27,039 nucleotides of DNA from a virus. The stretch is from the IMG/VR virus record IMGVR_UViG_3300042376_001430, positions 1 through 27,039 of that record. One strand, given 5' to 3'. Both the position numbers and the translations under genes were made by a program. Under the pieces are notes generated by a model. It had not been told where the DNA came from. It ran no database searches and saw nothing but the letters and a program-made list of their open reading frames with translations. Shown here piece by piece: positions 1-11,858 of this stretch. The first letter of the stretch is position 1; every line of letters begins with the position of its first letter.

Positions 1-44
1 GGATGCATTATTCGCTTGCATCCGACCGCCACTCGCCTTAAACA
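1..44 (+). promoter_or_regulatory. Promoter with embedded inverted repeat, upstream of gene 67-456
   Basis: Arms GGATGCA (1-7) and TGCATCC (17-23) flank the 9-nt spacer TTATTCGCT. The right arm contains a -35-like TTGCAT (16-21), followed 17 nt later by TAAACA (39-44). The same arrangement recurs at 2583-2624 and, degenerate, at 3591-3631. I infer a promoter overlapped by an operator for a dimeric regulator. Confidence 0.55.
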
Positions 45-66
45 AAGGTATCAACAGGAGGTACTC

Positions 67-456
67 ATGTCCATCGCACGTTCACTTAAGGTTGGCGACA
101 CCGCCTACATTCTTGCCGCCAGCGGATCGCAACAGGTCTTCACAGGTGTGGTCAAGCGCATTACTGCCACTGGCCAAGTCACCGTCGAGCGCAAGGGTGC
201 TGGCGCTACCTATGACACCCGGTTCAGCGCCGAGGACGAAGAAATCGGCGCGAGCTCCCGATGGCACCGCGACATCCTGATCACGAAAGAGCGGTACGAC
301 TATATCCTGGCCCTTCGGCGTGTGGTTGAGCGCACCCGTACCGCCCAGGGTGCAATGCAGAAGCTGGCCAACGAAGCATGGGGCACGAAGCCTGACGTCC
401 CTGCCCTGCTGAAGCGGCTCGACGAAATCCGAGCACTGGTCAGAGCTATCGACTGA
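67..456 (+). CDS. Small early phage protein, unknown function
   Basis: 129-residue protein. The start is the ATG at 67, because an excellent Shine-Dalgarno (AACAGGAGGT, 53-62) precedes it; the longer in-frame TTG start at 16 lies inside the promoter. Residues 1-60 look like a small all-beta, SH3-like barrel (repeated short strands around VGDTAYIL and QVTVERKG). The C-terminal half is helical and basic. No catalytic motif is visible. It is the first gene after a promoter shared with genes 2651 and 3658, so an early function is likely. It ends 1 nt from the stop of the opposing gene. I do not recognise the family firmly. Confidence 0.75.
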   Translation: MSIARSLKVGDTAYILAASGSQQVFTGVVKRITATGQVTVERKGAGATYDTRFSAEDEEIGASSRWHRDILITKERYDYILALRRVVERTRTAQGAMQKLANEAWGTKPDVPALLKRLDEIRALVRAID

Positions 457-457
457 C

Positions 458-1186
458 CTAACCGATTTCGGCCGATACCGGGACGGGTGGCACATCGGAG
501 CCCCCGTCCCTGCTCTTGAGCGCTGCTAGCTGCTCGTCCCAGTATGCCCGCCGCTCCCGCCGCACCGCGGCCCTGGCCAGCATCTCAGCATGAGCAGCCT
601 TGACCCAGGCGTCCACCTGTTCCAGCTCCAGCTTGGCCGCGGCTCGCACTTCAGCTCTAGCAGCGGCAGCCGCGTTGTCCACCACAATCGGCACAGGGCC
701 GGCTACAGCGACATCTGCCCCACCCTGCGGCACTGGTACCGATCCCGCGTCTTTGCGACCCCTTGCCCGGCTAACGCGCTCCCTGTTCAGACGCTTGGCC
801 CGTTGCTCCTTTGACTCGTTCGGGTTGGCGACGTTGCGCTTGAGGCTCTGAAGCACGGTGACCACGGTAGCAGCTCGCGCCTCGAGCATGGCCAGCAGGG
901 TTAGCGGTGTGGCGTCGGGCAGATGCGGGCATAGCATGGCGAACTCCCTTAGCGTGGGAGCAGGGTGACGATCCAAGTCGCGCGGCCACCAGTCCATGGC
1001 CTGCCAGTACTGCAAGAGCATTGCGTCAGTGACGTATAGGTTCAGGTCCGGCAAGACCAGACCGTTGAGGAGCGCGCCGCTGCGATGTGCTTCGAGCCAA
1101 CAGTACTCTTGGAACTCTAGTACGGTAAGCGTGACGTCTGTTAGACGTTGCTCGAGGTAGTGGTGGCGGGCAATGTCAATGAGCAT
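458..1186 (-). CDS. Orphan minus-strand protein with basic segment; possible initiator or regulator
   Basis: This is the only convincing gene on the minus strand. I take the ATG at 1186 (MLIDIARHHYLEQRL), giving 242 residues. An in-frame ATG at 1288 would add 34 residues, but these look non-coding and lie over repeats. The N-terminal ~100 residues are rich in aromatics and leucine (EYCWLEAH, YWQAMDWWPRDL). A strongly basic stretch near residues 125-145 (AKRLNRERVSRARGRK) could bind DNA or RNA. An Ala/Pro-rich linker and a charged alpha-helical C-terminus follow. No strong Shine-Dalgarno is seen. CTGTAATGG-type repeats begin 22 nt upstream of its start, which suggests autoregulation or origin binding. 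The function is inferred from context only. Confidence 0.6.
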   Translation of the reverse strand: MLIDIARHHYLEQRLTDVTLTVLEFQEYCWLEAHRSGALLNGLVLPDLNLYVTDAMLLQYWQAMDWWPRDLDRHPAPTLREFAMLCPHLPDATPLTLLAMLEARAATVVTVLQSLKRNVANPNESKEQRAKRLNRERVSRARGRKDAGSVPVPQGGADVAVAGPVPIVVDNAAAAARAEVRAAAKLELEQVDAWVKAAHAEMLARAAVRRERRAYWDEQLAALKSRDGGSDVPPVPVSAEIG

Positions 1187-1208
1187 GGTTAGACCGGGGC
1201 TGTGAGGG

Positions 1209-1475
1209 CTGTAATGGTAGCAGGGGGTGGCAGCATTACACAAGCGCAAACATGGGAAATATGGAAATCCCCTATAGTGCATTACCATTACATGGCTCGG
1301 CCGGCCTCTACCCGATCATTACTGTAATGGTGTAATGCTCACTACTTTATGTAGTATATTTATATGTCCATATAGTATTGAGTCCCTTTCCGACTCTACT
1401 GTACAACGGCCGATGCATCGGAACTCTTACTGACTCTACTCTGTAATGGACCCATCTATACTGAAACCATTACAG
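1209..1475. repeat. Cluster of CTGTAATGG / CCATTACAG elements
   Basis: Copies: CTGTAATGG at 1209-1217, 1322-1330 and 1441-1449; the opposite orientation CCATTACA at 1285-1292 and CCATTACAG at 1467-1475. Variants are GCATTACA (1233-1240) and TGTAATGC (1331-1338). CATTAC-T-GTAATG at 1317-1329 is a perfect inverted repeat, and 1441-1449 with 1467-1475 forms a spaced inverted pair. Two more copies lie at 3410-3417 and 3441-3449, the latter inside a promoter spacer. Likely binding sites for a phage regulator or initiator. Confidence 0.65.
1341..1380. other. AT-rich segment, possible DNA unwinding element
   Basis: Only 9 of these 40 bases are G or C, in otherwise GC-rich DNA. It includes two small inverted repeats, ACTAC-tttat-GTAGT (1341-1355) and TATATG-tc-CATATA (1361-1374). 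It sits among CTGTAATGG elements. An unwinding element of an origin, or the promoter of the minus-strand gene, are both possible. Confidence 0.4.
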
Positions 1476-1633
1476 ACAGCTCGCATCATCATCGCTGTGC
1501 ATTTTCTGCTTGCCGGTGGCAGTGGCTTGCCCTAGGTAAGGGGTGGGACCCGCTGCTACCGTGACCGTAGGGACATGGATGTGGCGGGTACTCCGGGGCC
1601 AAGCCCAGGCGAGACCAGCCTAAATCTTGGACG

Positions 1634-1662
1634 GAACGTGAATACGAACCGAACGTGAATAC
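1634..1662. repeat. Two direct copies of GAACGTGAATAC, 17-nt period
   Basis: GAACGTGAATAC occurs at 1634-1645 and again at 1651-1662. A degenerate relative (GAAGCGTGAAAGC) lies near 1788. The 17-nt period is about one and a half helical turns, similar to the array at 1984-2114, but the sequence is different. Confidence 0.5.
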
Positions 1663-1983
1663 CGCCGAAGGTCGGGAGGGATGGACTGGTGTCTATCGGT
1701 CGCCCAACTGCCCCTAGGCCTTGCTAAAGACGTCGCTCCCTATGGCCTCCACCCTCCCCGGTGCGAGGAGATCGCGGGCACATGAACCGAAGCGTGAAAG
1801 CATCGTCCGAAGCCGTCAGTCGGCGTGGTCACCAAGGGCTTGATCTCGGTCGCCTGAGGTGCCACGTCGGTTGGCACTTTACGCTTGAGGGGCGTATGCG
1901 AAAGCAAACGGCCACTAGGCTGTGGATCCGCTGCCTTAGGCATGGGTGAAGCAGACTGAGGGCTTCCTCGTGACTGTCGACAG

Positions 1984-2114
1984 GTCTCCACTACACGGGT
2001 CGGGTCGTGCCTGGTGCAGGCTCGGCCCACCCTCGTATCCACTACACGGGTCTCCACTACAGCGGGTGTCCCCTACACCGAGGTCTCCACTACAGCCGGT
2101 ATCGACTACAGGCG
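1984..2114. repeat. Iteron-like array, consensus GTCTCCACTACASCGG
   Basis: One isolated copy at 1984-1998 is followed by five contiguous copies at 2035-2049, 2050-2065, 2066-2082, 2083-2098 and 2099-2114, with unit lengths of 15-17 nt. The core CCACTACA is intact in four copies; it is CCCCTACA in the 2066 copy and CGACTACA in the 2099 copy. Tandem units of this size are typical of replication iterons or multi-site operators. Confidence 0.75.
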
Positions 2115-2288
2115 ACCTCGACGCATGGCGAGTGGCCGACCAGTGTGGTCATCGAGTCCACGAGCCCTGGCTGTCGCCTGGGGGCTACGTCGCATCTGAA
2201 CGACACTAAAGTCGGTGCCGGCCGGCTAGCACGCTGCGACAAATCGCAAACCGATGCAAGTGCTTTACCTTCGCTCAGCCCAATCAGT

Positions 2289-2307
2289 AACGGCAACAGT
2301 TGCCGTT
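2289..2307. promoter_or_regulatory. Perfect 19-bp palindrome, candidate operator
   Basis: AACGGCAAC-A-GTTGCCGTT is perfectly symmetric about A2298. Its size and symmetry suit a homodimeric HTH repressor. No T-tract follows and no gene adjoins, so a terminator is less likely. Confidence 0.5.
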
Positions 2308-2517
2308 GCCATTCGGTCTACGGGAGGGCGCCCGCGCCTAAAGCAATCGATGCATCGAGTCAAGCAAAAACGCACATTTTTAGATGCAAAGCTGTGGAAA
2401 AGCGGTCGATCGATGTAAACCCCGTTTTTAGCCGGCTACAGCGCGATCGAGCGATTTGGGCGTACTGGTACCGAAAATCAAAAGTTGCCGATTTCGCACT
2501 TTTTCGAGTTGTCGGGG

Positions 2518-2546
2518 TTGCACAACTTTAGCGGATGCATTAGGCG
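2518..2546 (+). promoter_or_regulatory. Promoter-like TTGCAC-17-TAGGCG
   Basis: TTGCAC (2518-2523), then 17 nt carrying GATGCAT (2535-2541 region), then TAGGCG (2541-2546). It lies about 100 nt upstream of gene 2651 and resembles the other TTGC-17-TAGGG elements of this window. Confidence 0.35.
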
Positions 2547-2582
2547 CGCCGAAACGTACCCTGCTAAAAATAGTTCGCCTTC

Positions 2583-2624
2583 GATGCATTATTTTGTTGC
2601 ATCTAGATACAGGTGCTTTAGGGT
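2583..2624 (+). promoter_or_regulatory. Promoter with inverted repeat, upstream of gene 2651
   Basis: GATGCA (2583-2588), 9-nt spacer TTATTTTGT, TGCATC (2598-2603). The -35-like TTGCAT (2597-2602) overlaps the right arm and TAGGGT (2619-2624) follows at 16 nt. This is the second copy of the element at 1-44. Confidence 0.55.
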
Positions 2625-2650
2625 GTAGCTAACAACAACGGAGCTACCCC

Positions 2651-2854
2651 ATGTCGGAAGTCCACATCCTTACCATTACCGCCGATCACGATTTCGATGC
2701 CGTTCGCACGGTGCGCGCATTTGCCGATCGGCAAGCTGCGGAAGCGTGGGCCGCCAAGTGGATCGAAAGCGAAGTGGCTTTCCAAGACAGCATCGACCCC
2801 GCTTTCGGTGCGCACGCATTCACCGCAACGATCAACACCCTCCCCGTTCAATAA
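2651..2854 (+). CDS. Small early protein, unknown
   Basis: 67 residues starting MSEVHILTITADHDFDAV. The ATG follows GGAGCTACCCC, an unusual leader reused almost exactly by the next gene (2868-2879). Predicted alternation of a beta strand (VHILTITAD), a helix (RQAAEAWAAKWIESE) and a terminal strand suggests a small alpha/beta fold. It is acidic, with no catalytic motif or membrane segment. It is the first gene behind the inverted-repeat promoter at 2583-2624 and probably co-transcribed with 2880-3269. Family not recognised. Confidence 0.7.
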   Translation: MSEVHILTITADHDFDAVRTVRAFADRQAAEAWAAKWIESEVAFQDSIDPAFGAHAFTATINTLPVQ

Positions 2855-2879
2855 CACCCCCTCCACAGGAGCTACCCCC

Positions 2880-3269
2880 ATGCACAACCCCATCGAAGCG
2901 CTTGCTGCCCACATGGCCGCCCAACCCTATTACACCCTCACCCATGACATGGATGCGTTGTATTGCATAACCGTTACCGCATACAGTGCCAGCCAGCTGG
3001 AGCTGTGGCAAGCTACCATCCCGGCCGACGAAGCGGTTGCACTGGTGGCCGATGCGCGCGCACTTTTTGACGGGGAGGGGTTGCTTTGCAGCGCCGACTA
3101 CTTTGAGGGGTTGCTCCAGCGTCTTACAACTGAGTGGATTGCAATGTGCAACCCCATGCCCCCGCACCCCGTTTGCAGCCGCCAGCAGGCTGTGGATTTG
3201 CTTGCCGCCCACGTCGGCAAGCGACCCGTTACCCTGTCGATCGACGGCATTGAATGGTCCGTCGCCTAA
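2880..3269 (+). CDS. Early protein, unknown
   Basis: 129 residues starting MHNPIEALAAHMAAQPYYT. The ATG at 2880 is chosen because the leader AGGAGCTACCCCC directly precedes it; the longer frame from 2697 overlaps gene 2651 and has no ribosome site. It contains several Cys (for example the FDGEGLLCSADYF and PHPVCSR regions), but these are not in a clear metal-binding arrangement. Mixed alpha/beta content, no membrane segment. It lies 25 nt after gene 2651, so both form one short operon. Not recognised. Confidence 0.7.
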   Translation: MHNPIEALAAHMAAQPYYTLTHDMDALYCITVTAYSASQLELWQATIPADEAVALVADARALFDGEGLLCSADYFEGLLQRLTTEWIAMCNPMPPHPVCSRQQAVDLLAAHVGKRPVTLSIDGIEWSVA

Positions 3270-3301
3270 ACAACACACTATCGACCTGAGTTGACGCGAA
3301 T

Positions 3302-3325
3302 CCCGATCGGCGAAAGCCGGTCGGG
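3302..3325 (+). terminator. GNRA-capped hairpin after gene 2880-3269
   Basis: CCCGATCGGC (3302-3311) pairs with GCCGGTCGGG (3316-3325) over 10 bp with one G-T wobble, closing a GAAA tetraloop. No T-run follows, so this is either a weak/factor-assisted terminator or an mRNA 3-prime end stabiliser. Confidence 0.55.
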
Positions 3326-3434
3326 TGATCGTCATGTGTAGATCGCTCGGGGCCGCATCTACACCTGACCGACCCTCGCCACTTAAATCAAGTTTACATC
3401 TGTTTAGTGCCATTACACTTTCCCCGCCCTCCCC

Positions 3435-3463
3435 TTGCGTCTGTAATGGAGGTGTCCTAGGGT
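3435..3463 (+). promoter_or_regulatory. Promoter-like TTGCGT-17-TAGGGT with operator in spacer
   Basis: TTGCGT (3435-3440) and TAGGGT (3458-3463) are separated by exactly 17 nt, and that spacer begins with a perfect CTGTAATGG (3441-3449). Protein bound there would block RNA polymerase. The transcript would start about 185 nt upstream of gene 3658. Confidence 0.45.
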
Positions 3464-3590
3464 CAGTTCATTCACGCTTCAATTACCCGGATTTTCGGAC
3501 CGTCCTCTCGACTAGGCCCCATCCCTGCGATTTGTGGTCATCTGATTAAATAGGTCGGGGGAGGGGCTCGGTTGAAAATAGCCGGCCGGT

Positions 3591-3631
3591 GACTTTATTC
3601 GCTTTACATCCGTTTATGCCAGCCGTAGGGT
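3591..3631 (+). promoter_or_regulatory. Promoter of the tiny-gene operon
   Basis: TTTACA (3603-3608), 17 nt, TAGGGT (3626-3631). The preceding TTATTCGCTT is identical to the spacer of the element at 1-23 and CATCC follows, but the left arm is lost. It lies 27 nt before the start of gene 3658. Confidence 0.55.
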
Positions 3632-3657
3632 AGGCGCAAGTTCAACAGGAGGCACCA

Positions 3658-4023
3658 ATGAACCAGGAAAGACGTAAGGACATCGACAAAGCCATCTCGG
3701 CGGTCGAGGTGTGGGGTGAGCTGCAGAAGGCATTCGCTGACAAAGCGGCTACGCTCCGCCGGGAGTTCGAGGATCTGCACGAGAAGGCGCAGGAACTCCG
3801 CGGCAAGATCGAAGACATCCAGTCTGAAGAGCAGGCGGGGTTCGACAACCTCAACGAAGGGCTCCAGCAGGCCGAGAACGGTCAGCGGGTGGAGGAGGCG
3901 ATCAACCATCTGGAGGAGGCGCTTCAGCATATCGACGGGTACGAGGAGCTGGCGGACGACTTTCTGCCGACGCTGGACGTCGAAGAGCTGGTCGGCTTTC
4001 TCGACAACGCGAAGGCAGTCTGA
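3658..4023 (+). CDS. Coiled-coil early protein, conserved phage type
   Basis: 121 residues, with Shine-Dalgarno CAGGAGG at 3646-3652. It is almost wholly charged and helical. A long heptad-like region around residues 20-65 is followed by EEQAGFDNLNEGLQ and a second helical stretch ending DFLPTLDVEELVGFLDNAKAV. The pattern of a coiled coil followed by EEQ-(F/Y)DN-(L/M)-x-E-x-LQ and another helix recurs in small hypothetical proteins of many phages; I recall the pattern but not a function. It heads an overlapping operon (TGATG junction with 4023). Confidence 0.75.
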   Translation: MNQERRKDIDKAISAVEVWGELQKAFADKAATLRREFEDLHEKAQELRGKIEDIQSEEQAGFDNLNEGLQQAENGQRVEEAINHLEEALQHIDGYEELADDFLPTLDVEELVGFLDNAKAV

Positions 4024-4262
4024 TGGCAGATTCCCTTCCCGCTACGCTGCCGAAGGTTTACTGGCTGAGCGAGGTGCCCGCGGGGTGCCAACTCAGCGGA
4101 AAGCCCTTCAACGGGGTGATGTACGACGCAAATCTGCCCGGCATCGGCTGGGGTCTGTGGTGCTACGAGGCATTCGAATACCACGGGGGCAAGCTGGGCA
4201 CCGGTTTCGGACAGAAATACCGCCGTCAAGATGACGGTCGTTGGCTAAAGGTGGCAGGATGA
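4023..4262 (+). CDS. Degenerate zinc-ribbon-like small protein
   Basis: 79 residues; the ATG overlaps the upstream stop as TGATG. The C-terminus (LGTGFGQKYRRQDDGRWLKVAG) and central FNGVMYDA segment match a small phage protein family in which two Cys pairs normally form a zinc ribbon. Here the first pair is CQLS instead of CxxC and the second keeps a single Cys (GLWCYEAF). Zinc binding is therefore probably lost while the fold core remains. It is one of five tightly packed genes. Function unknown; early host-interaction or nucleic-acid binding is conceivable. Confidence 0.7.
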   Translation: MADSLPATLPKVYWLSEVPAGCQLSGKPFNGVMYDANLPGIGWGLWCYEAFEYHGGKLGTGFGQKYRRQDDGRWLKVAG

Positions 4263-4390: not shown

Positions 4391-4647
4391 CCCCCGACGA
4401 ACTCTCCGCTGGTATAGAGGGCCCTCCGGGATACGAAGGGCCAGCCGGACTCTCGCTCTCGCCCGAGGTCTACGAAGAGTGCCTCGCCATGCTTCGTCAA
4501 GCTCGCATCGAGGACGACGAACGCCGGGCTAACGTCTGGTGGAGGCGTCTCGGTCGCAAGCTGCGCTCGATGACCAAATCCGTCATGCCAAGATGGGTGA
4601 AGTCGCCCGCCCTACCGATACAGGGAGGGAAGCATGACCACCCCTGA
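4387..4647 (+). CDS. Small unknown protein, translationally coupled
   Basis: 86 residues from the GTG at 4387, which overlaps the upstream TGA as GTGA. A start at 4309 would overlap the zinc miniprotein by 80 nt, so I prefer GTG. The N-terminus has a Gly/Pro segment (GIEGPPGYEGPAG). A charged helix (SPEVYEECLAMLRQARIEDDERRANVWWRRLGRKLRS) follows, then a basic tail ending KHDHP. No membrane segment. The stop lies 14 nt inside the following gene. Function unknown. Confidence 0.6.
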   Translation: MTPDELSAGIEGPPGYEGPAGLSLSPEVYEECLAMLRQARIEDDERRANVWWRRLGRKLRSMTKSVMPRWVKSPALPIQGGKHDHP

Positions 4648-4795
4648 CATAGCCTGTCCTTTCGAGGAAGAAGGTTTCAGTGCTTACGTTAACGACTGGT
4701 GCCGTGAAGACTGTCCCTACGAAGAAGGAACAGACGGCCAAGCTGGTTGGCTCAAAGGCTACGACCATGCTTACACGGACCATATGAAGCAGTAG
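4634..4795 (+). CDS. RMF-like small protein (ribosome modulation factor superfamily)
   Basis: 53 residues, with Shine-Dalgarno GGAGGGA (4623-4629) inside the end of the previous gene. The core EGFSAYVNDWCREDCPYEEG plus GWLKGYDHAY matches the signature of ribosome modulation factor and its phage relatives: a helix with Gly/Ala, then CPY, then W-L-x-G-(W/Y)-x-x-A. RMF dimerises 70S ribosomes into inactive 100S particles in stationary-phase bacteria. Whether this copy binds ribosomes is inference; it could modulate host translation early in infection. It is acidic, unlike basic E. coli RMF, so another partner is possible. Confidence 0.65.
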   Translation: MTTPDIACPFEEEGFSAYVNDWCREDCPYEEGTDGQAGWLKGYDHAYTDHMKQ

Positions 4796-4892: not shown

Positions 4893-5222
4893 ATGCCTGT
4901 CATAAATCCTATCCTAATCGGGTTTGACTGGTCCCAAGCCTTCGATCTTCCTGCTGGGACAATGCAGGTTGGCGATACTGTCCGCGCCGATTTTAGATAT
5001 GCGGTAACGGATGAAGAGCCCGCTGCTTCTATCGTAAGTGGGGCGGGCGTTGCTATATCAGGTGATCGGATTACGCTAAGCCTCACTGAAGTGCAAACGC
5101 GCACGTTGAAAGTCCGCGATATCCTAACCAGTTTAGTGATCGTGCGAGGTCCGGCTGAGATTGCAATCGGGCAGATAATCACTATTCCGATTGCTCTGCT
5201 ACCGACAAGGAGCATCGTGTGA
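4893..5222 (+). CDS. Putative fibre-associated beta-sandwich protein
   Basis: 109 residues starting [22 protein letters not shown], with Shine-Dalgarno GGGGAA. The sequence is nearly all short beta-strand-like segments with an Ig-like rhythm ([41 protein letters not shown]). There is no signal peptide. Its stop overlaps the GTG of the collagen-like fibre gene (GTGTGA), so the two are translated together. I infer a virion accessory or attachment protein for the fibre. It could also be a chaperone; confidence in the function is low. Confidence 0.6.
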
Positions 5223-6058
5223 CTGCTATTGTCATAACGCCAGTTCCTGCTGAGCCGATTGAACTTGACGGTGTTGCTGGGGTACCCGGTCCTCCAGGAT
5301 ATTCAGCTTACGAGATCGCTGTCGCTAACGGGTTTGTGGGTACCCAAGCCCAATGGTTGGCCTCTCTTGACGGTCCACAAGGCGCGCCAGGTCCCGCTGG
5401 CGCGCAAGGGCCCACAGGTCCAGCTGGGGCAACCGGCCCCGCTGGCGCAACGGGTCCGCAAGGGCTCCAAGGGGCTACTGGCAACGCGGGACCAGCGGGG
5501 GCGACCGGAGCGGCAGGCCCTCAGGGTGACACGGGGCCAGCTGGGCCGGCCGGAGCAACGGGTCCGCAAGGCGTTAAGGGTGATACAGGGGACACGGGAC
5601 CGACTGGACCGACTGGGCCTCAGGGTAATATTGGGCCAGCGGGTGCAACCGGAGCGACGGGTCCAGCCGGACCTAAAGGCGACACCGGCGACACGGGACC
5701 GCAAGGCATCCAAGGGGCGACGGGAGACACCGGACCGGCTGGCCCTACAGGACCTCAAGGTGCAACCGGCGCGACTGGGCCAGCAGGATCGACCGGGCCG
5801 GCTGGCGCGACGGGTCCAGCCGGACCTAAAGGCGACACCGGCGACACGGGACCGCAAGGCATCCAAGGGGCCACCGGCCCTCAAGGCGCCACCGGCCCTC
5901 AAGGCCCTATCGGTCCACAAGGCCCCGCTGGTCCGTCAGGCGGCGGCGGGGGCATCTATGTTCAGCAGACCAGGCCGACAGACCCCGGCCCCTGGCACTG
6001 GTGGGTCACGGACGCGGGCGGCGTCATCATTAATTTAATCGTCAACGACGGGACCTGA
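5219..6058 (+). CDS. Collagen-like tail fibre protein
   Basis: 279 residues; GTG start with Shine-Dalgarno AAGGAG and translational coupling to the previous gene. The N-terminus contains [24 protein letters not shown], a motif frequent in phage fibre proteins just before collagen repeats. Residues ~53-245 are almost uninterrupted Gly-X-Y triplets ([13 protein letters not shown] type), expected to form a trimeric triple helix. A Gly-rich hinge and a short C-terminal piece ([18 protein letters not shown]) follow, too small for a typical receptor-binding head. The fibre probably works with the kelch-like protein downstream. A 65-bp perfect duplication lies inside the repeat region. Confidence 0.9.
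5654..5871 (+). repeat. 65-bp perfect direct repeat inside the collagen-like gene
   Basis: Bases 5654-5718 are identical to 5807-5871, offset by 153 nt (17 Gly-X-Y triplets). Synonymous variation elsewhere in the gene makes this exact match stand out as a recent duplication or gene-conversion tract. Confidence 0.85.
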
Positions 6059-8866: not shown

Positions 8867-9287
8867 AATGCTCAAGCGGGGCGTCTTCGGCAAGAACTAC
8901 TTCGCTTGCGCGACCGCTGAGGACATTCGCGGGATGTCGCCCGAGGTTATGGGCTGTTCGCTTGACGAACGACACCCCTTCGACAAGCGTTGGAACGACT
9001 ACGGCGTCAAGGCGGGAGAGTCTTACGAGAACTGGCTGGCCAACGGATGGATCTTTCCGGAGGACCCGCTCGGGTGGTTCCACTGGTACTGCCGTTACCA
9101 CAACGGTCGGCGCCACCTTCGGGATGATCACCAGATCCGTCGCTGGCAGCGGTACGGCATCCGGTGGGGCCGGTTCGCTCGCACTCAGCTGATCACAAAA
9201 GGTGACGCGTCTCCAGTCGTGAAACAGGGTCTTCTCCAGTGGGGTTACGACCCGATGAAAGTTCTCCACGACCGGGACGGCGTTTAG
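8835..9287 (+). CDS. Conserved phage protein with WYCRYxxGRR motif
   Basis: 150 residues; the ATG at 8835 lies 32 nt inside the previous gene, with Shine-Dalgarno GGAGGAGG. Aromatic-rich N-terminal region (PHLTPVEMLKRGVFGKNYF). The core GWFHWYCRYHNGRR, then DDHQIRRWQRYG, a basic stretch, and a C-terminal QGLLQWGYDPMKV resemble a family found in phages and some cellular genomes (WYCRYYxGRR ... DDxRQIxRW ... LLxWGY). Its function is not known to me. The conserved Arg/Trp pattern suggests nucleic-acid or nucleotide binding, which is inference only. Confidence 0.7.
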   Translation: MLFQPHLTPVEMLKRGVFGKNYFACATAEDIRGMSPEVMGCSLDERHPFDKRWNDYGVKAGESYENWLANGWIFPEDPLGWFHWYCRYHNGRRHLRDDHQIRRWQRYGIRWGRFARTQLITKGDASPVVKQGLLQWGYDPMKVLHDRDGV

Positions 9288-9291
9288 AGGG

Positions 9292-9320
9292 TTGCGATAC
9301 GAAGCTGCTCCGTGTAGGGG
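9292..9320 (+). promoter_or_regulatory. Promoter-like TTGCGA-17-TAGGGG
   Basis: TTGCGA (9292-9297) and TAGGGG (9315-9320) with exactly 17 nt between them, 24 nt before gene 9345. It belongs to the TTGC-17-TAGGG group seen at 2583, 3435 and 3591. Confidence 0.45.
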
Positions 9321-9344
9321 TAACGTCTGTTTAACGGGGTGAAC

Positions 9345-10027: not shown

Positions 10028-10257
10028 GGACCGGAAGGTTGCTGGTCGAGGCAAGCGGGCTGGGAGCGCGCGTCAAGCGCCTTGCTGATGAATCCGGTGT
10101 CAAGATGAAAGTCTGGTTAGACGCTCTTCCCACACTTGATAGGCGAGCCATTGCGGCTGCCAGGCTTGACTACGAGGAAACGATAGCCATGTGGATGGAC
10201 GCCCACGAGAGGCTTTCTGAGATTCTTGTTGAGCTTGTTGCTCGCGGCGCAAAATAG
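10024..10257 (+). CDS. 77-residue helical unknown protein
   Basis: Starts with the ATG of an ATGA overlap with the previous stop. Apart from a short basic N-terminus (MRTGRLLVEASGLGARVKR) it is mostly helical and charged, ending AHERLSEILVELVARGAK with heptad-like leucines, so it may oligomerise. Last gene of the nuclease operon, since a new promoter (10281) precedes the helicase. Function not recognised. Confidence 0.65.
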   Translation: MRTGRLLVEASGLGARVKRLADESGVKMKVWLDALPTLDRRAIAAARLDYEETIAMWMDAHERLSEILVELVARGAK

Positions 10258-10280
10258 TTCCGACGCGACGCATTTAGAAC

Positions 10281-10309
10281 TTGCACTCCCTATAGGTCCG
10301 CCCTATTAA
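10281..10309 (+). promoter_or_regulatory. Promoter TTGCAC-17-TATTAA upstream of helicase
   Basis: TTGCAC (10281-10286), 17-nt spacer, TATTAA (10304-10309), 25 nt before the helicase start and its GGGAGAA ribosome site. This is one of the clearest sigma70-type promoters here. Confidence 0.6.
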
Positions 10310-10334: not shown

Positions 10335-11858
10335 ATGAGCACCCTGAACATCAACGTCGCTGGAATCACGCCGCACAATCCGCCGGTTGACATCGAGGAC
10401 CAGCCCAAGTCGACGGGCCGCGTGTGGTCACCCTACCAGCAAGCCATCTTCGCGCACATCGAGGACCCGAACGGTGGGAACGCCATCGTGGAGGCTGTCG
10501 CGGGGTCCGGGAAGTCCACGACCATCAAGGAGGGGCTGAAGTACGCTCGCGGGTCGACTATCTTTCTGGCGTTCAACAAGGCGATTGCTGACGAGCTGAA
10601 GAAGGCTGGCGTCAACGCCCGCACCTTCCACTCGCTGGTCTTCGGGCCCGTGATGCGCGCTCGCCGCCAGCAGAACCCGGAGATGAACAAGCTCCGCATC
10701 TTGTGCCAGGCCAACTTGACCAAGTACGAGTTCGAGCTCTACGCCACTTTCATGCAGAAGCTGGTGGGCTTGGCCCGCGGGATGGGGATCGGCTGCCTTC
10801 TGCCAAACGTCCGCGGCGAATGGTTCAAGATTGTTGACCATCATCAGCTGGAGCCCGAGCACGCTGATGCGGACCTCAGCCGGGCCGTGGACCTGTCCAT
10901 GGAGCTGTTGGACTGGTCATGCGCAGACCAGCGCGTCGACTTCGACGACATGCTGTACTTCGCTGTCAAGGACAAGCTCGCCCTGCAGACGTACGATTTC
11001 GTCTTCGTGGACGAGGCCCAGGATACGAACCCGATCCAGCGCGCCCTCCTTCGGAAGATCATGCACAATCGTTCGCGGCTGGTAGCGGTCGGCGACCCTG
11101 CCCAAGCCATCTACGGCTTCCGCGGTGCCGACAGTGAGTCGATGGGAATGATCGCTCGCGAGTTCAACTGCAAGACGCTCCCGCTGAGCATCAGCTACCG
11201 CTGCCCGACTGCTGTGGTCAAGTACGCCCGCCAGTGGGTTAACCATATCGAAGCCGCTCCGGGCGCCAAGGAAGGTCTGGTCGGGCACTTGGGCACGAAG
11301 TGGGAACCGTCGTTCTTCCGGGCGGGCGACCTCATGGTCTCGCGTAAGACTGCGCCCCTAATCACCACGGCGTTCAAGTTCATTCGCGCCGGCGTGCCTG
11401 TCGTCGTTATGGGCCGCGAGATCGGACAGGGGCTGAAGGCGCTTATCAAGAAAATGAAGGTCAGCGACATCGACCTTCTGTCCGCTCGCCTTGACGAGTA
11501 CCGGGCTCGTGAGGTTAAGCTGGCGCTCGCCAAGATGGATGAGCAGAAGGCTGAGGCGATCACCGACCGGGTTGAGTGCATCCAGTTCATGATCGATAGT
11601 CTCGCTGAAGGGTACCGAACCATCCCTGAGCTTGAAACTGCTATCGACTACCTGTTCGCCGATAAGGGTCAGGCGGTCATCTTCGCTACCATCCACAAGT
11701 CAAAGGGGCTGGAGGCCCCGCGTGTCTTCTGGTTAGGCCGCGCCGAGTGTCCCGCCAAGTGGGCTCGCATGGATTGGCAGCGCCAGCAAGAGATCAATCT
11801 CTGCTACGTGGCAACGACCCGGGCGATGGAAGAGCTTTACACCCTGGAACTCCCGTAG
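10335..11858 (+). CDS. UvrD/Rep-like superfamily 1 DNA helicase
   Basis: 507 residues. All SF1A motifs are in order: Q motif around WSPYQQAIF (31-39), Walker A AVAGSGKSTT (54-63), Ia FLAFNKAIADEL, Ib TFHSL, II VFVDEAQDT (223-231), III VGDPAQAIYGFRGAD (252-266), IV SISYRCP (285-291), V ATIHKSKGLE (451-460) and VI LCYVATTRA (489-497). It should be an ATP-dependent 3'-5' DNA translocase acting in phage replication or recombination. At 507 residues it is shorter than cellular UvrD (about 720), with reduced 1B/2B insertions, as usual for phage versions. It is transcribed from its own promoter. Confidence 0.95.
   Translation: MSTLNINVAGITPHNPPVDIEDQPKSTGRVWSPYQQAIFAHIEDPNGGNAIVEAVAGSGKSTTIKEGLKYARGSTIFLAFNKAIADELKKAGVNARTFHSLVFGPVMRARRQQNPEMNKLRILCQANLTKYEFELYATFMQKLVGLARGMGIGCLLPNVRGEWFKIVDHHQLEPEHADADLSRAVDLSMELLDWSCADQRVDFDDMLYFAVKDKLALQTYDFVFVDEAQDTNPIQRALLRKIMHNRSRLVAVGDPAQAIYGFRGADSESMGMIAREFNCKTLPLSISYRCPTAVVKYARQWVNHIEAAPGAKEGLVGHLGTKWEPSFFRAGDLMVSRKTAPLITTAFKFIRAGVPVVVMGREIGQGLKALIKKMKVSDIDLLSARLDEYRAREVKLALAKMDEQKAEAITDRVECIQFMIDSLAEGYRTIPELETAIDYLFADKGQAVIFATIHKSKGLEAPRVFWLGRAECPAKWARMDWQRQQEINLCYVATTRAMEELYTLELP

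Follow-up and report, generated by a model that had tools for sequence, protein, structure and literature searches.

A set of related promoter elements was recognized in a 27,039-base virus record with a G+C content of 59.7% (IMG/VR record IMGVR_UViG_3300042376_001430, positions 1 to 27,039; from here: the window, or G000). Six of these elements, W1, W2, W3, W4, P5 and P6 (Table 1), are, judged by their sequences, very probably promoters of one phage set, and a subset likely shares an upstream box, GAYGCATT. At W1 and W2, this box (GATGCATT) and the −35 sequence TTGCATC jointly make up the inverted repeat GATGCA-N9-TGCATC. The best overall explanation, which we place slightly on the probable side, would be a promoter family with an upstream box, in which a GATGCAW-binding protein acts on W1 and W2. 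The promoters, the shared box and the membership of W4 and P5 are well supported by the sequence comparisons; the use of host polymerase, a regulator, the sign of its action and an early timing are what we infer. The sequence marks the window as part of the genome of a Queuovirinae-like siphophage, a relative of Sphingomonas phage MMDA13. The divergent gap of MMDA13, described in the available part of PMC7472734, has its counterpart in a leftward gene at 458-1288, a non-coding gap at 1289-2650 and rightward genes from 2651.

The exact pattern GATGCA-N9-TGCATC has only two matches in the entire record, W1 and W2, and none in the reversed-pattern control. The fuller pattern GATGCATTATTYKYTTGCATC, with up to three mismatches, likewise occurred twice, compared with 0 of 100 shuffles. 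When three mismatches were allowed in the arms alone, 11 matches were obtained, which is chance level (shuffle mean 11.45) and leaves the exact pair as the basis of the claim. An original prediction, made for this DNA from its letters, had placed the repeats at 1-23 and 2583-2603 and a derivative at 3591-3611, all just before starts at 67, 2651 and 3658. The two repeats are real and are the sole exact matches, the derivative (W3) retains the core and lacks the left arm, and W1, W2 and W3 each end 44-47 nt upstream of the respective ATG, with a purine-rich stretch resembling a ribosome-binding site present. The proposed −10 at 16-17 nt from a −35 box in the right arm was also found, with spacers of 17 at W1 and 16 at W2. 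The random scatter named at the time as an observation that would speak against the element was not seen in this 27-kb fragment, where the exact element occurs at two places only.

Table 1. Positions of the predicted promoter elements, half-sites and neighbouring genes in the window
Feature	Position	Strand	Description
W1 inverted repeat	2-22 (1-23 with the seventh pair)	+	GATGCA-N9-TGCATC, GATGCATTATTCGCTTGCATC; overlaps the −35
W1 predicted promoter	16-21; 39-44	+	−35 TTGCAT, spacer 17, −10 TAAACA
W2 inverted repeat	2583-2603	+	GATGCA-N9-TGCATC, GATGCATTATTTTGTTGCATC; overlaps the −35
W2 predicted promoter	2597-2602; 2619-2624	+	−35 TTGCAT, spacer 16, −10 TAGGGT
W2 upstream element	2568-2576	+	AAATAGTTC; one of two AAA[AT]AGTT[CT] matches in the window
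W3 degenerate copy	3591-3611	+	GACTTTATTCGCTTTACATCC; core TTATTCGCTT kept, left arm lost, right arm TTTACATC
W3 predicted promoter	3603-3608; 3626-3631	+	−35 TTTACA, spacer 17, −10 TAGGGT
W4 predicted promoter	10252-10260; 10267-10274; 10281-10286; 10304-10309	+	AAATAGTTC, GACGCATT, −35 TTGCAC, spacer 17, −10 TATTAA
P5 predicted promoter	1496-1538	+	TGTGCATTTTCTGC, −35 TTGCCG (1510-1515), −10 TAGGTA (1533-1538); conserved in G004
P6 predicted promoter	9280-9320	+	GCGTTTAG, −35 TTGCGA, −10 TAGGGG; before a RusA-like open reading frame at 9339
P7 candidate promoter	3435-3463	+	TTGCGT-17-TAGGGT, upstream of W3
P8 candidate promoter	2518-2546	+	TTGCAC-17-TAGGCG, GATGCA half-site beside the −10
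GATGCA half-site cluster	2253-2541		5 copies, both orientations; non-coding gap
Gene behind W1	67-456	+	129 amino acids; weak Phage_ProQ_C_like match (E 1.5e-4), below the family cut-off
Gene behind W2	2651-2854	+	67 amino acids; G004 homologue behind the orthologous promoter, 30% over 63 amino acids, pairwise E 1e-10
Gene behind W3	3658-4023	+	121 amino acids; phrog_4068, a function-unknown family; Pfam matches below cut-off only
Gap-side gene	458-1288	−	counterparts in six compared phages; speculative candidate for a DNA-binding protein

The promoter design was followed through the spacing of −35-like and −10-like motifs in the window and in G004 (IMGVR 3300036046_000030), the closest relative found that covers the gap region, which can be aligned in pieces across the gap and over the helicase. 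TTGC-N19-TAGG occurs 10 times in the two at spacing 19, versus a mean of 1.2 at other spacings (8 to 30, with 18 and 20 excluded; P 6e-7). Counting three orthologous pairs once leaves seven independent sites (P 2.5e-4); precedence to a gene is established for some of the ten, not for each. W1-W3 contribute nothing to this peak because the spacing at W2 is 18 and W1 and W3 have other hexamers. All of W1-W4 show the spacing of sigma70-type promoters before a gene, with spacers of 16-17. Upstream of the helicase gene, a TTGC.. with TA.... at 17 nt is found in the window, G004, MMDA13, G001 and G002.

The preferred −10 form differed between the compared phages. Behind TTGC, TAGG.. outweighs TATA in the window and G004, in which TTGC-N19-TATA does not occur at all, while TATA takes its place in G003, PaMx25 and DoCa3 (TATA form 8 vs 1.5; TAGG form without a peak, 2 vs 2.4). 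In G001, MMDA13 and G002 both forms are only mildly raised (7 vs 4.6; 9 vs 3.65).

The set is probably read by the host RNA polymerase, since no polymerase gene was recognized among the scanned open reading frames of this 27-kb fragment; the sole such label seen in MMDA13 belongs to a 132-base open reading frame. A terminator-like stem lies directly before W3 (3568-3589), one of 3 in region 1-4100 vs 3.3 in shuffles, and the terminator scan of this region returned nothing at W1 or W2.

The left arm of the repeat corresponds to the GAYGCATT box, which starts 14 bp before the −35 and is preceded in some promoters by the A-rich AAATAGTTC. Both copies of AAATAGTTC in the window, at W2 and W4, start 15 nt before the box; AAATAGTTC or AAAAAGTTC precedes three boxes in G004, W3 has AAAATAGCC, and the DNA upstream of W1 is off the contig. 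At the level of sequence, AAATAGTTC and a CATT-rich box are common to W2, W4 and promoters of G004; conserved A/T-rich sites upstream of the −35 would be expected of UP-element promoters. Across 11 phage sequences, GCATT-N6-TTGC has 12 occurrences, including four in the window (5, 1499, 2586 and 10270). The preference for this spacing is modest (12 at 6, 10 at 5 and 9 at 9), and not all 12 are promoter-like. A mismatch scan for box sites separated poorly from chance (window 24 vs reversed control 7), and a search for the module AAATAGTTC-N6-GAYGCATT returned one AT-rich contig without a tblastx match to the window.

The original prediction had counted three genes behind the element. A shared design before several genes was indeed found, but the set is larger than three, as W4 (10267-10287) and P5 (1496-1516) also belong to it. 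W4 precedes a UvrD-like helicase open reading frame at 10335. P5 reads into a conserved non-coding stretch; compared with G004, the 30 bases up to TTGC differ at 2 positions, and conservation is low in the spacer but complete in TAGGTAAG. The box and −35 of P6 are kept in G004 as well, which is weak evidence because the box overlaps coding sequence. At the place of P8, G004 has TTGCAC...GATGCTATAGGCG. A model trained on 8 sites from relatives, with window sites excluded, placed its five best plus-strand sites of the window at 2583 (score 27.8), 2 (25.4), 10267 (20.6), 1496 (17.3) and 3588 (14.2), followed by a site inside a gene (13.1). Sites one to four score above all 60 Markov replicates (best score 16.8), and the best minus-strand match is the W2 palindrome itself (12.7).

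Extra half-sites had also been claimed for positions 2253-2541, and this holds: GATGCA occurs there 5 times vs 0.11 expected (Poisson p 1e-7). It is the top 6-mer of the window gap (9 vs 0.56, rank 1 of 927), these nine occurrences amounting to about seven separate places, as the W2 arms supply two of them and each of two 8-bp palindromes is counted twice. Exact dyads recur at several promoters, because besides W1 and W2 a perfect repeat was found before a gp59-like gene in G001 and G006 (2 of 15 records searched). The three exact copies precede mutually dissimilar genes, namely the W1 gene, the W2 gene and the gp59-like gene, the last being unrelated at E 0.01 to the genes behind W1-W3. MMDA13 has a one-mismatch repeat before its gp59-like gene. 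The orthologous W2 promoter of G004, which stands before a homologous first gene, keeps AAAAATAGTTCG and GATGC.

Given this evidence, we consider the chances about even that a GATGCAW-binding regulator controls W1 and W2 through the repeat as an operator. A number of observations weigh against such control or against the wider set. The outer arms are complementary at 18 of 36 pairs vs 16.3 in shuffles (p 0.33; 12 sites), and the W2 orthologue in G004 is asymmetric, its GATGCG and TTTACATC being separated by two additional bases. Repeats with one mismatch are not uncommon, 7 being listed outside the window copies; MMDA13's alone among these was shown at such a promoter, and it counts only because it stands at the same gene. 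Neither G001 nor MMDA13 has a clear TANNNN 16-18 nt behind the gp59 repeat. The G004 gap contains 0 GATGCA, and enrichment is weak in the gaps of G001 (3 vs 0.92) and MMDA13 (4 vs 0.81). Pfam recognized no regulator among 23 scanned window proteins of the 27-kb fragment. A strict E. coli sigma70 scan found 0 promoters, and so no good match to TTGACA/TATAAT, in 1-4100 (shuffle mean 1.6); the consensus is that of E. coli and may not be the host's. The fifth model site (14.2) lies below 16.8, yet above the fifth-best site of every replicate (11.5). Moreover, the training sites were picked after inspection of the window and some are orthologues of window promoters, so that the ranking corroborates the set and is not an independent discovery.

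The original prediction is thus partly supported: promoters, shared design and half-site cluster are borne out, conserved symmetry is not, and no regulator was recognized among the 23 Pfam-scanned window proteins. The right arm is a −35 box as proposed, and TTG[CT]A[TC] is a common −35: of 26 distinct regions upstream of the gp59-like gene, 14 contain it at a distance of 45-125 nt. A plausible though less probable alternative does without a dedicated regulator, in that GAYGCATT and AAATAGTTC would form an UP-element-like module for the RNA polymerase alpha subunits and TTGCATC would be just the −35. The mirror image would then arise incidentally from the palindromic nature of TGCA; for the same reason, a direct and an inverted reading of the TGCA cores are inseparable by sequence. 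Such a module fits the lack of covariation between the arms and the scarcity of the left arm, which is present in 2 of the 14 TTG[CT]A[TC] regions; a GAYGCA box before any TTG at the same spacing is found in 3 of 26 (L085, L101 and L005), one of the three having GACGCA before TTGCCG. W4 and G004 also keep GACGCATT with non-matching right arms, and 9 of the 17 AAA[AT]AGTT[CT] matches listed over 27 loci stand, in our reading, in promoter-like positions, namely 0, 10 or 20-21 nt upstream of a −35, that is about one helical turn apart. An UP-like module leaves unexplained, however, the top rank among the gap 6-mers of GATGCA, present in both orientations, and the three exact copies before unrelated genes in two kinds of phage.

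The clustering of half-sites in a non-coding divergent gap could alternatively mean that GATGCAW serves the gap chiefly as a site of replication initiation or of a similar structural role, coupled to or overlapping with transcription at W1 and W2. In keeping with this, the MMDA13 gap carries other repeats, according to the available part of PMC7472734, and a gene with a basic motif adjoins the gap in 7 compared phages. We regard this as improbable, given that the half-sites lack regular spacing and are absent from the partly alignable gap of G004, and that W1 lies outside the gap.

A promoter family with regulation of W1 and W2 by a GATGCAW-binding protein would work as follows. Its members would consist of a −35 TTGCNN, 16-17 bp and a −10 TANNNN, often TAGGGT-like in this lineage; in a subset, the GAYGCATT box would start 14 bp before the −35 and the A-rich AAATAGTTC would end about 20 bp before it, where the C-terminal domain of the alpha subunit or an activator may sit. 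The −35 and −10 of W1 and W2 appear weak, and the protein would set their output and bind the half-sites in the gap. As the repeat is centred some 38-39 bp upstream of the predicted start, a protein bound to it could either aid or obstruct the polymerase, as an activator that contacts RNA polymerase from −39 or as a repressor that covers the −35. W3 and W4 would be read with little or no control by this protein.

Two further candidates were considered. An RNA hairpin or attenuator was rejected: the dyads of W1 and W2 do fold as single-strand DNA (−5.3 and −4.1 kcal/mol; W3, 0), but the elements lie upstream of the predicted start and their arms do not covary. A host operator was considered as well: GATGCATTNTTNNNTTGCATC was found in 48 genome_contigs stretches from many phyla (by title including 3 Alphaproteobacteria and 3 Xanthomonas) and no title named a sphingomonad, so no host regulon is suggested. 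Among IMG/VR records, GATGCAWTWTTNNNTTGCATC occurs in 16 stretches, of which two are G001 and G006 and 14 are on contigs absent from the other searches. GATGCATTATTYKNTTGCATC had 0 matches in viral_contigs, a collection that may omit the record of the window itself and those closest to it. Among the open-access papers listed, none described the element by title and abstract start, and GATGCATC was absent from the 10 listed of 1,476. Upstream of the gp59-like gene in L107, another spaced repeat, GATGC-N9-GCATC, differs in spacing and does not overlap a TTGC −35.

As for the genes behind the elements, no relatives of the W1 gene were found in viral_contigs. The W3 gene product gave one YlbF-like match below cut-off, and no such box was present in the inspected upstream DNA of its relatives L003 and L004. 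The gap-side gene product has no Pfam family above cut-off; its alignment over 7 phages (20-45% identity to the window's protein) contains an invariant E-x7-R-x-N-x-E-x3-R in a basic stretch.

Several other features were noticed in the gap. The non-coding stretch behind P5 (1484-1658; L023 1912-2103 in G004) is 68.8% identical to G004 over 192 columns and can also be aligned with MMDA13 and G001. It folds no better than shuffles (z −0.28). No Rfam family reached its gathering threshold in the window, nor did any match 1250-2700 at E up to 1. TGTAATG/CATTACA repeats occur in the gaps of the window (1289-2650), G004, MMDA13 and G001, with 4, 5, 5 and 5 copies of TGTAATG, respectively. Units resembling (t)ctccactaca(c) are repeated at 1985-2110 of the window and at two places in G004 (L023 362-430; L057 12548-12613).

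Matches to phage families identify terminase, portal, scaffold, major head, tail and helicase open reading frames in the window. For the major head protein, identity is 74.5-76.4% with the listed Nipunavirus-type records and 69% with MMDA13; for the helicase, it is 60-66% across the 19 best-matching records. A 5.4 kb contig, L008, encodes a major head protein with 99% identity and thus stems from a near-identical phage. A Collagen-like/tail-fibre-like open reading frame (5219-6058) lies outside the tail module, within the rightward genes that precede the helicase, and a 53-amino-acid open reading frame at 4634-4795 has a weak ribosome modulation factor match (E 9e-4, below the curated cut-off).

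For Queuovirinae-like phages, which have been little studied, the set yields a promoter grammar that can be tested (GAYGCATT/AAATAGTTC, TTGC, TAGGGT). Should the operator fail, the case would be a warning that a −35 beside an upstream box can mimic one. Among known systems, the gap invites comparison with MMDA13, for which the available parts of PMC9437464 and PMC7472734 describe 12-bp repeats overlapping predicted CtrA sites. TTAACC/GTTAAC is among the top gap 6-mers of MMDA13 (L005 7760-8945), in line with these published predictions, and of G001 (L052 9366-10752). As in the CtrA-site gaps described for alphaproteobacterial phages, a candidate regulator site is repeated in the divergent gap beside the first rightward genes. 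CtrA regulation of this fragment was rejected, with TTAA-N7-TTAA found 0 times in the window, TTAACC 0 times in the gap and GATGCA as the top gap 6-mer instead. An undescribed GATGCAW-recognizing protein might control the divergent gap and the first operons in place of the CtrA sites of MMDA13, which we consider doubtful; if true, related phages would have swapped the early-region regulator and kept the promoter chassis. The element in any case opens the question whether related phages exchange this regulator.

In PeSL cassettes, a stem-loop acting as a terminator is joined to an early promoter. PMC4503421 names these cassettes, which are mobile regulatory elements in T4-like phages. They resemble the present set in that one promoter design stands before unrelated genes; in contrast to this joining of promoter and stem-loop, the dyad of W1 and W2 overlaps the −35 itself. 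The nearest functional parallel are the T4 early promoters, which, according to the available part of PMC2988021, have an UP/−35/TGn/−10 structure, occur in many copies with conserved bases upstream of the −35 and use the host RNA polymerase. A repeated promoter and conserved upstream bases are common to both, as host RNA polymerase would be too, whereas the window differs in its poor matches to the E. coli −35 and −10 consensus and in its upstream box, GAYGCATT/AAATAGTTC.

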